A stretch of DNA of 64,000 bases from Chloromonas sp. AAM2 (Eukaryota; Chlorophyta; Chlorophyceae; Chlamydomonadales; Chlamydomonadaceae). Positions 3,835 through 41,249 of this stretch are shown piece after piece. Under the pieces are notes generated by a model. It saw nothing but the letters and a program-made list of their open reading frames with translations. It was not told the origin of the DNA and searched no databases. A program made the position numbers and the translations under genes. The DNA lies in assembly GCA_004335635.1 (NCBI GenBank), contig QAXH01006743.1, positions 20,116-84,115 on the forward strand, read 5' to 3'. Every line of letters begins with the position of its first letter. The first letter of the stretch is position 1.

Positions 3835-4426
3835 GTCTGTGCCTACACTGGGTTGCAGGGAAGAGCACTGCAGTAGTGTCACTGTTTGTGTGATCACATC
3901 ATATATTACACACTTCAAGAGGACTTTCAGAGAGTTGAGGTTTTGAGCAGCTTTACTCTCTCTTGACAAGCTTTAACCTTTCTGAAAGTTATCAGGAAAG
4001 GGCTCATATTATGAAGCGCCTTCTACACAAGGCCACATTTGGACAAGGGCACCTGCCAGAGGTTTCTTCAGTCTGAAAACTTTTTACACACGACATATCA
4101 GGCGCACGTGAAATTACAGCTGCGTATTGACGCCTGTCCAAACAAAATAATGTATGACTGTGCAGTAAGCAACCTACAAGTGAGTGAACAGGTCACAGTT
4201 AGAATCGTCAGAGCGTAACAAGCAGCACAGCCAAAGCTGAGTCAGGAACTGTCCGTGTTGCCCGTTCTCACGGGACTGTCACATGGAAACGAACCGTGGC
4301 AAGTTCATGAATCCACAAAAAAAACACCCACCAGTCTTCACAGCTTGATAGTACTCCATCAACCAACTCATCAAGCGTTCAACTCCTTACATACAAAGCC
4401 ACCCTGGTTCGATCACTGGGATGCGT
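3835..4426. other. Intergenic, between CLASRP-like 5' end and FtsH 3' end
   Basis: This should hold the promoter of the leftward CLASRP-like gene and the 3' UTR of FtsH. It is AT-richer than the flanking exons. I see no gene in it. Confidence 0.5.
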
Positions 4427-14328: not shown

Positions 14329-14487
14329 GTTTGCCAGCTCTGGGACAATTCCTTTGTCTGGTACTGGGACAACATATCGACTTACCTGTCCTAACGTCGT
14401 CCATCCGGTGGTGATGGGACAGTATCCTGGTGTCTGTGGTTGAATATCCTGTTGGCGGTGTTCCCAATTGTCCCAGAACTGGCAAAC
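14329..14487. mobile_element. MITE-like element with 22-bp terminal inverted repeats
   Basis: The left end (14329-14350) and the reverse complement of the right end (14466-14487) share GTTTGCCAGYTCTGGGACAA plus TT, with one mismatch in 22. The element is 159 bases and has no coding capacity. A short A-run precedes the end at both sides, which also holds for other copies of the end in this window. I see no clear target-site duplication. Confidence 0.7.
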
Positions 14488-15105
14488 TCCTTTTTTGTGG
14501 TCAGGTTGCTCCGAGGCCTGTCGTGGTCACTTGTTGTGCTCAGTCACAACTGGGCTCCTTCAAAGCTTTTGACGTCAGCGTGCAGATTGACACGAGTTTA
14601 GCTTCGCTAGCCCTAAACAGGCTAACGGGGTTGAGCAAGGCTGGTAACGTCCTGAACAGAAGAGAAGATTTTGAGAGGAAAGCCGACCAGATTCCATTAC
14701 AACATGTGGCTTGGGACGACGCCCACCCTCTGTTGGGTGATACGCAGCGGAGTGGTCATGCCTGTACTCAGTTGGCATGGCAGGCTGGGAGTCATACTAG
14801 GTTGTTGTACAGCAACTGCACGAGCAGCGGGGCATGGCCCGGTATCAAATAACAACAAACTGATTAACAAATGGTTTTTGAAGGTGTGCCAGCAAACAGT
14901 AGTCTGCCTAGCCAACACCACAGGCATGGGTCGAAGTGTTGGCCCGGGCTAAACTGTAACATGTAACAAAACGCAGCCAACTACCACAGACCACCTGTCA
15001 GCTGTGAAAGGGACGCAAACAAACCGCGTAACGTGGATAATGTGTCTGTCAGATAGAGGTCCACCTCTAAACCCAGGCTGGGGGGTTCTTGGTGCCAGCA
15101 GCAAA
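14488..15105. other. Intergenic with a copied fragment of the SSB exon
   Basis: 14708-14734 is identical over 27 bases to 15194-15220, which lies inside the last coding exon of the SSB gene (coding for EGGRRPKPH). No further gene is supported. Confidence 0.6.
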
Positions 15106-16209: not shown

Positions 16210-17203
16210 TTCTTTGAAGATACTACTCTTCTTTGAAGATACTTTGAAGATACTGTCTCGTAACCCTAGTCGTGTAACGTGTCATCGGACCACATGTGCA
16301 CGCACGTGTACTATGGGGCATGGTAGCTGGCGAGTGCTGGCCTTGGCAAAGCTGTTTGCCCACTACATGTGGTTCTGTGCTGTTGACCCAACGTCAGCCA
16401 GGTGGCCGTGGATGGGCATGAAGGTAGATGCACCTCTGGGCAGCACTGTTAATTGGTGACTGTTGCCATCCACCATGACGCAGGTGAACTCAAGTCCTCC
16501 TCTGGACAAACCTGAGCAGAGAAGGAATCTGAGAGTTCGAGGAGTGCACACCGGGAAGCATGTCCAACGTCTACCGAGGCTTGCGGACAGGATAGTACCT
16601 CGAGGGGTGACCACCACCATTACTACCGAACTAGTCCCTGTCAAGAAGCAAAAGATGGTATTAGTCCAATGGGCAGCCGCCCTAACGTTGCTTGTCACAT
16701 GCCCATGGCAAGATCTGAGTCAAGGCGGATGTACATGCTGACGACTCATGTTCAGCATGTTGCATGAGACGCAGCAACGCTGTGCAGTCCTGACAATATG
16801 TGAAATTCGAGGTGATGCGCCACGCCATGTGAGCCACGCCACGCCACGCCACGCCATGTGAGCCACGCCATGTGAGCCACGCCACGCCACGCCATGTAAG
16901 CATGCGTGCAGGCTCATGCGCAATTGCAGCTGACTACGGAAGAAGTGTTATACTCAAACCAGACTAAACATCATCAAAATAGACTGGCATTGCACAGCTT
17001 CGCACGGCTGTTTGCGAACGGGCCTAAATTGGAACGGCCTAGTGACCTTAGCTGTAAGGGGAATCGCACCCCAATATGTTAACCACCAAAATAGGGAGCA
17101 AGCACTCAACCTGCTCTCTTCAGTGGGTTATGGATCGATAGCTACCTCTAGTGCAGTATCTGCAGCCGCGCCCTCAGCAATCGCCTCCAGCACTTCCAGC
17201 TCT
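16210..17203. other. Intergenic, repeat-bearing
   Basis: Holds a TTTGAAGATACT short tandem repeat near 16212-16256, partial copies of two dispersed repeats (16540-16569 and 16584-16624), and a GCCACGCCACGCCATGTGA-type tandem repeat at 16819-16897. No gene is supported. Confidence 0.6.
16819..16897. repeat. GCCACG/CCATGTGAG tandem repeat
   Basis: Irregular tandem array of GCCACGCC and CATGTGAGCCAC units. Confidence 0.85.
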
Positions 17204-17416
17204 TCAAAAGCTGCAGCACCGTGCCGGTCTGCCTAAGGCCGCAGGACTTGCCTGGCCAGCCGCCACGCACTCCAGCAGGCATCTCATGTTGCGTGCAGCG
17301 TTGACATCGCGATTCCACACGCTGTGGCAATGTGGGCACTCTGAATTACCTACTGAAAAAGCACTTACTAAACTAAATACTTCAACCCCAATTGAAGTGT
17401 TGTTGTTGTTGCACTT
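17204..17416 (-). pseudogene. Relic of Fanzor/TnpB-family nuclease C-terminus (zinc finger plus RuvC-III)
   Basis: An open frame of 70 codons on the (-) strand reads ECPHCHSVWNRDVNAARNM at 17341-17285. This is the C-terminal signature of TnpB and its eukaryotic relatives Fanzor: the second CxxC pair of the zinc finger followed by the RuvC-III Asp in RDVNAARN. The WNRDVNAARN form is the one I associate with Fanzor proteins. The frame begins just after a stop codon, continues about 25 residues past the motif, and no RuvC-I or RuvC-II region is visible upstream (up to 17879). I read it as a truncated, inactive copy. A spliced upstream part cannot be excluded. Confidence 0.6.
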
Positions 17417-17879
17417 CTACTTTGAGTACGCCTCGCTGGCGCCCTTCTTCACAGCGTCCAAGGTGCTGCCCGTGCAGCGGGGCACAGAATATTCAAAGGC
17501 AATTTGCTACCTAAGTGTTGAGTATCCTGTGCCAGTCATGATCGTTTAAGAGGTCCACGCAGACTGGCGTACTTCAGGCTGAGTGCTATTTACCGCATGC
17601 AAGAACGAAAGCGCCTTCAAAACACGACCGCGCTTCTGTAGTGATGGCTTGCATGGCGGGGTCATCACTCGTCTTAAGTGACACGGCCAGTATACCTTGT
17701 AGTGTAGTGGAATCTGGTCGGATAAACGGACCGTCGTCACTCTACTTCACACAAGACGAGCCAGCTAACCTGTTGAGCCTGGCCTAGTCTCCAAGCAAAG
17801 AAGGCTGTCTCTGTCTCGGTGCGACGAAAACAATTTCAGTCCATGTCAGCTTCAGTCGGTGGTAGCTAGTACCACTAGT
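17417..17879. other. Intergenic upstream of the Fanzor-like relic
   Basis: A region where the rest of a Fanzor-like gene would be expected on the (-) strand. I could not find conserved RuvC-I or RuvC-II motifs. Otherwise 3' flank of the importin gene. Confidence 0.4.
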
Positions 17880-41161: not shown

Positions 41162-41249
41162 GCACAAGCCTGTGCTCTGTATTGCAGTACTGTCCCAGAA
41201 CTGGCAAACTTCTTTTTTTTGCACAAGCATGTGCTCTGTATTGCAGTAC
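41162..41249. mobile_element. Solo TIR end bracketed by 29-bp direct repeats
   Basis: A 30-base segment (41191-41220), the reverse complement of the TIR end of the MITE at 14329-14487 with its A-run, sits exactly between two 29-base direct repeats (41162-41190 and 41221-41249; one mismatch, GCACAAGCCTGTGC versus GCACAAGCATGTGC). Confidence 0.65.

Follow-up and report, generated by a model that had tools for sequence, protein, structure and literature searches.

A decayed transposon copy on the minus strand

The stretch of DNA analysed here (the window, 64,000 nucleotides) carries on its minus strand a remnant of ~735-750 bp, whose parts follow one another in the order AAGTA word, left end, unmatched interior, Fanzor relic, shifted-frame tail, scaffold relic and right end. 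The AAGTA word, a family-wide motif and the predicted target-adjacent motif (TAM), lies at 17743..17747 (-) directly beside the left end (flank read as GTGTGAAGTA|); of the two TA copies that make up the presumed target duplication, the word contains the left one. The damaged left end, or left terminal inverted repeat, occupies 17700..17742 (-) and falls outside the span of the initial annotation. From 17742 onward its resemblance to the family is a fuzzy match; four family left ends were tried, and the 36 bp at 17735-17700 are 83-89% identical to every one of them and for each are the top match in the whole window (E 3.7e-6 to 7e-9).

Between the left end and the coding relic lies an interior (17342..17699, -) that matches no part of the family among the copies compared; a deletion junction, an insertion or captured DNA are candidate origins. 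An open plus-strand frame that spans part of it (FYFEYASLAPFFTASKVLPVQRG) gave no Pfam match, and with that search empty a captured gene was rejected. We link the left end and the relic by their position and orientation across these unmatched 358 bp.

The 70-residue minus-strand frame described in the initial annotation is present as an ORF translation at 17204-17416 (-), and family sequence within it is limited to 17341-17205. Its first 25 residues (17416-17342) have no counterpart in any other copy among the loci compared. The relic proper, 17205..17341 (-), reads ECPHCHSVWNRDVNAARNM... and does hold a zinc-finger CxxC and the RuvC-III Asp, as had been reported, but the CxxC is the second one only. 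The C-terminal tail of the protein continues in a shifted frame at about 17128..17214 (-) (FEELEVLEAIAEGAAADTALEVAIDP, stop), as judged by eye from comparison with the tails that other copies have. Further on, alignment and folding identify 17008..17090 (-) as a relic of the conserved 3' untranslated and right-end region, the predicted guide-RNA scaffold; stem 2 is retained and the 3' arm of stem 1 is gone. The decayed right end is placed at 16995..17018 (-), partly by inference from the family right end: the last aligned bases, CGCAAACAG, stop at about 17008, and neither the boundary nor the right TA is recognisable. The window copy is thus an internally deleted, decayed and dead remnant.

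The frame had also been considered together with a nearby MITE, and the question raised whether one transposon family carried both. The MITE, 14329-14487 (159 bp), ends in GTTTGCCAG...CTGGCAAAC and has no TA at its edges. There are six matches to GTTTGCCAGYTCTGGGACAA in the window, the MITE family being represented at 14329-14487 with further matches at 41190, 46940, 48225 and 59632, and these ends are unlike those of the Fanzor element. With both ends and edges different, the proposed link was rejected. Elsewhere in the genome MITE ends lie near some Fanzor copies (L035, L040, L057), as neighbours. Two other small traces were seen in the window. An 18-bp stretch at 14683-14700 (+) recurs unchanged within two of the four Fanzor left ends that were compared (E 1.6e-4), and is possibly a trace of another copy of the element. 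The translation AWDDAHPL occurs twice, at about 14700 and 15190 (+), perhaps marking another small transposon end.

The relic belongs to a Fanzor family

Profile searches of the 70-residue frame, as the initial annotation had proposed, agree with its reading as a Fanzor/TnpB C-terminal relic. PF07282 (Cas12f1-like_TNB) matches frame residues 23-44 with profile positions 39-60 of 60 (E 1.3e-5), the score of 25.7 bits being slightly under the curated cut-off of 26.3. Three NCBIfam TnpB models match the frame at E 4e-4 to 6e-3, all far under their cut-offs, the guided_TnpB match being at the C-terminal end with E 3.8e-4. A search of the 74.4 Mb genome from which it comes gave 19 matches to the frame, itself included, and at least 40 to its DNA, so the frame is not a chance one. 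By our count by eye, 18 of the best 40 DNA matches extend no further than query base 121, which confines them to sequence 3' of the zinc finger.

The fullest copy read lies on contig C43 (Met at 1388, stop at 3961). It too is broken, with stops and frame breaks (five stops within match 162-400), and its left end is not visible because the bases before 1242 are N. The copy carries FISTDGVGASV, GVDPGINDF with the RuvC-I DPG that is absent from the deleted window copy, and IIDEYKSSQ with the RuvC-II Glu; its finger and RuvC-III region read CSDC-x16-CHHC-x6-D, ending in NRDVNAARNM. A candidate phase-0 GT-AG intron of 255 nt separates IIDEYKSSQ from CSDC. Read across it, with splicing inferred, the Glu stands six residues ahead of the zinc finger (E-YKSSQV-C). 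The acceptor ahead of GTGTGCTC is conserved in L044, L036, L024 and L021, and a second candidate intron, of 260 nt, lies upstream. The protein joined by hand would have the spacing DPG-x156-E-x6-CxxC-x16-CxxC-x6-D, which fits the Fanzor residue pattern printed in the accessible portion of PMC10711439, and its C-terminal part matches PF07282 at E 2.3e-11.

A search of protein databases, with 7997 candidates scored, found five relatives. The closest are P0001 for the N-terminal part (59% identity over 33% of the query), whose start residues are nearly identical to those of the C43 copy, and P0002 for the C-terminal part (37% over 39%). Against solved structures, the C43 piece alone places a TnpB-type transposase on top (E 3.9e-4), and none of its 14 hits is a chain named Fanzor. 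P0002 alone finds SpuFz1 first (7.7e-5) and Parasitella Fanzor1 second. A profile of C43 and P0002 gives SpuFz1 at 2.2e-9, Parasitella Fanzor1 at 4.2e-7, a TnpB-type transposase at 2.4e-3 and Guillardia Fanzor1 at 0.038. When P0001-P0004 are all added to C43, three Fanzor1 proteins lead (4.4e-18 to 2.5e-10, SpuFz1 at 4.4e-18), and Cas12f and TnpB trail at 1e-3. The surrounding element is likewise a eukaryotic transposon with terminal inverted repeats and TA, and not an IS607. Together these comparisons support assignment of the family to Fanzor1 rather than Fanzor2, an assignment that depends on the relatives since the C43 piece by itself does not point to Fanzor1 in particular.

The genome holds further pieces and other Fanzor-like genes. 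At a contig edge, G000:C383:3-440 is a piece of the window's family with a 156-residue frame without stops, 78% identical to C43. Locus L054 (G000:C499:2259-5486; frame 61-1860, +) is a different Fanzor-like gene with an open frame of 600 residues; its PF07282 match (E 2.5e-4) is under the cut-off, and positions 1248-1367 of that contig match the DDE_3 transposase family. Another, L048 (G000:C1181:21065-24262), has a PF07282 match above the cut-off and stands beside an IS630/Mariner-type transposase.

Ends, edges and deletion derivatives

The element has CAGTGACWGTCCC inverted repeats (CAGTGACWGTCCC.../...GGGACTGTCACTG) of ~24 bp with a few differences between them, and TA at both edges: the left end reads TA|CAGTGACTGTCCCTTTATCCGACC and the right end CCGGTCGGAAATAGGGACTGTCACTG|TA. 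By these ends and edges it is a Mariner/IS630-like element. The initial annotation had asked for relatives in the genome with matching termini; a fuller if broken copy is there (C43), but the element termini are unlike the GTTTGCCAGYTCTGGGACAA ends.

Of the 30 left-end loci among the matches listed, 12 lack a right end that could be recognised within reach. From the remaining left-end loci and the Fanzor-bearing loci we chose 17 two-ended copies, excluding L067, L074 and L082 for poor right ends. TA adjoins the left end in 16/17, the right end in 17/17 and both in 16/17. These copies span 83 to 1031 bp and are internal deletions, which retain between ~20 bp and ~250 bp of the right part; Fanzor coding pieces lie inside both ends in L056 (1031 bp), L024 and L039. 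In the four shortest (83-91 bp) left-end-like sequence amounts to ~60-90 bp and right-end-like sequence to ~20-50 bp, by an ungapped measure in which the parts can overlap and which fails for L024 and L039 owing to indels.

No transposase with these ends was found, and none of the three DDE_3 matches of the genome could be tied to such ends. Two of the three are on contigs with other Fanzor-like genes. The third, G000:C1963:189-470, has a ghost copy of the window family (2559-2824) ~2 kb away, a closeness that may be chance.

We searched the joined flanks of the 17 two-ended copies for uninterrupted relatives. Only L065 found any, at two places and with 78-81% identity; for the remaining 16 the flank search gave no empty site, nor did comparison of the joined flanks with the collected loci. 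The filled L065 site joins GATGTA to TAAAGAG; one empty site has GAAGTG/TGAATGAG and the other GAAGTG/TAAATGAG-like sequence, each alignment having a one-base gap within ~5 bases right of the junction. The pair fits insertion beside a pre-existing AAGT with duplication of TA; given the GATGTA of L065 itself, the identity of 78-81% and the one-base gaps, it cannot alone fix the size of the duplication. The GAAGTG of the two uninterrupted relatives argues against assigning AAG to the element instead of the target.

A polar five-base word at the left end

The bases ahead of the left end are conserved. In the best 40 of 67 candidate left flanks AAGTA stands in 29/40, AGTA in 34/40 and TA in 35/40, which puts AAGTA at 29/35 of the flanks with TA. 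As background, AAG precedes 60 of the 3630 TA sites of the window (1.65%), which sets the expected share at ~1.7%. The first left-end query itself began with AAGTA; a second without it returned 38 identical places among its best 40. Four further copies outside the 40, found through their Fanzor frame (the window copy, L039, L041 and L024), have AAGTA too.

Right ends were drawn from all collected loci and are not those of the same 40 copies. Of 49 rows, 23 were dropped by eye as left ends read backwards, leaving 26 true right ends. TA adjoins 25/26 of these, and the mirror word TACTT occurs in 1/25 (L017). The contrast between 29/35 on the left and 1/25 on the right has a Fisher p of 7e-10, which overstates the evidence because the copies are related by descent and not independent. 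We therefore predict AAGTA, found at the left end only, as the TAM of the family, by analogy with Spizellomyces, where flank bases agree with a measured TAM.

Two copies, L068 and L072, keep at most ~22 bp of the right end and have no RNA scaffold, and their flanks are AAGTA and AAGTG. Their own guide RNA cannot have maintained the word, so that it was probably fixed at insertion. Since such tiny copies without the RNA region retain it, the transposition machinery seems to choose AAGTA. The word was probably set at insertion by a transposase oriented through the left end, or else by Fanzor with other guides acting in trans.

A predicted guide RNA at the right end

About 105 bases separate the stop codon from the TA. 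One sequence from each of two subfamilies was folded, and both give the same three stems: TGGYGG/CCRYCA as stem 1, GGGG/CCCC as stem 2, and a third that forms a long arm. At the foot of this arm UACA pairs with UGUA, or UGCAGU with ACUGUA, which draws the terminal bases of the repeat and the duplicated TA into the pairing. Fold z-scores are modest (-1.4 and -1.7). Over 19 right ends 87.3% of cells pair, as against 34-42% in slid versions, although the structure is favoured over these by construction, being taken from a family member. Cells changed on both sides number 8, compared with 3.9 in shuffles (2/500 shuffles reach 8), and are confined to three pairs. The percentage paired is reached by 101/500 shuffles and the covariation score by 135/500, making covariation weak, and an alignment-based consensus fold contains stems 1 and 2 only.

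The 3' end of the family is thus predicted to be a guide-RNA scaffold, in keeping with Fanzor1 guide RNAs that, in the accessible text of PMC10711439, take in the repeat and the target duplication. The conserved non-coding stretch 3' of the frame that the initial annotation had suggested looking for, as a guide RNA, stands as a prediction for the family, on the folds and the 19 right ends, but the stretch is broken in the window copy, where one arm of stem 1 is lost and 166/200 shuffles fold as well. An Rfam scan returned two rows only, far below cut-offs, and a tRNA scan of the window returned none; with no useful result from either, we gave up the idea that the GGGGTGCGATTCCCC hairpin is tRNA-like.

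Discussion

We consider it highly probable that the window remnant, decayed and with its interior deleted, comes from a family of Mariner/IS630-like DNA transposons that bear a Fanzor1 gene and move as follows. The reading starts from what the copies themselves display, namely the protein signature, Fanzor pieces between the ends, inverted repeats, edge TAs, deletions of 83-1031 bp and AAGTA on the left only. A transposase supplied in trans would cut at the CAGTG ends and insert copies at a TA that follows AAG. The guide-RNA scaffold would come from the element's 3' end, whose last stem pairs the TA duplication, and the DNA right of the insertion would be the guide. Fanzor with that RNA would then cut the empty sister site (AAGTA plus right flank), and the cut would restore or spread the element. 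With most of its protein gone and its scaffold broken, the window copy is now capable of none of these steps.

How the word came to stand at the left end admits another account, which we take seriously while leaning against it: AAGTA may be the transposase's own preference, made polar by a longer left-end sequence, with Fanzor uninvolved and a TAM that may differ. L068 and L072, which kept AAGTA and AAGTG without a scaffold, speak for this, as does the greater share of left-like sequence in the four shortest copies; against it, in the published Spizellomyces example the CA before the left repeat and the element edge agree with the experimental TAM CATA (PMC10432273, in its accessible portion). 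A bolder idea, which we hold to be unlikely but state for its interest, is that one polar word of five bases serves twice: AAGTA would be recognised by the machinery that transposes a TA-inserting element and would also be the TAM of the element's passenger Fanzor. The scaffold-less copies that keep the word would then mean that transposase and nuclease evolved a shared word, as in IS200/IS605, or that Fanzor helps to pick targets in trans.

Other doubts concern the window copy itself. It is improbable that the left end at 17742 and the relic at 17341 are unrelated old fragments brought 358 bp apart by chance, even though the interior has no match among the copies compared and 14 other loci of the window's subfamily, when searched, showed no clear left end (L031 has a weak piece of 18-19 bp): the two share orientation, stand in the correct order beside an AAGTA flank, and have no superior left-end match elsewhere in the 64 kb. 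The many 3'-only DNA matches (18 of the best 40) and the 12/30 left-end loci in which, among the matches listed, the right end went unrecognised within reach might suggest one-ended (Helitron-like) or 5'-truncated spread, as in Chlamydomonas Fanzor families; two-ended copies with inverted repeats, TA on both sides and internal deletions make this very improbable. That the frame is a chance one or comes from another CxxC protein family, a possibility the initial annotation had itself named, scarcely deserves credence: taken alone it is short and slightly under the Pfam cut-off, but its same-genome relatives, longer copies included, bear the rest of the Fanzor signature. We thus retain the reading as an internally deleted Fanzor1-carrying transposon.

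Much of this arrangement is already known. In the accessible text of Bao and Jurka 2013 (PMC3627910), the Fanzor1-carrying Mariner elements PGv-1, PUl-1 and PUl-4 have TA duplications, some of them without a transposase. The window family resembles their description in having Fanzor1 within Mariner-type ends and TA duplications; it differs in its host, and that text names no flank word for them. Chlamydomonas CRe-1, 2 and 3, in the same source, are also Fanzor1 repeats with many partial copies, but theirs are Helitron-type ends inserted after TTTT, and here the site is TA. Ghost copies and a flank word are likewise on record: the available part of Saito 2023 (PMC10432273) describes Spu-1 elements of Spizellomyces punctatus, with SpuFz1 and ghost loci, whose flank bases fit the measured TAM CATA.

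The family here shares with Spu-1, as presented there, a Fanzor1 gene between inverted repeats, conserved bases ahead of the left end, copies that lack the gene but keep related ends, and an RNA region between stop codon and right end; SpuFz1 is also the best-scoring solved structure for the window family's relatives. Compared with that account, the flank word here is AAGTA instead of CATA, the ghosts are many different internal deletions, some without the RNA region, and the Fanzor copies read are broken or partial. The SfAV Fanzor1 guide RNA (Yoon 2023, PMC10711439, accessible text) similarly has a three-stem scaffold including the inverted repeat and target duplication, but theirs is backed by RNA sequencing and ours is predicted from sequence. 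Among green algae, a preprint on Auxenochlorella (PMC12633428, in its accessible portion) reports that no repeat there is more abundant than a Fanzor element. Our search of the open-access literature, which was not keyed on 'AAGTA', returned no paper on this Fanzor family or on the AAGTA word. To this known kind the family adds a member with a clear prediction of its TAM and with deletion copies that form an unusual set.

These findings bear on the role that Fanzor nucleases, RNA-guided DNA cutters akin to CRISPR enzymes, play for their transposons. The relatives of the window remnant reveal the insertion word and the probable position of the guide RNA, and the family yields a sharp and cheap prediction, a TAM of AAGTA with a guide beginning directly after the TA. 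Its natural deletion series sets apart what the guide RNA and what the transposase contribute to the choice of insertion site.
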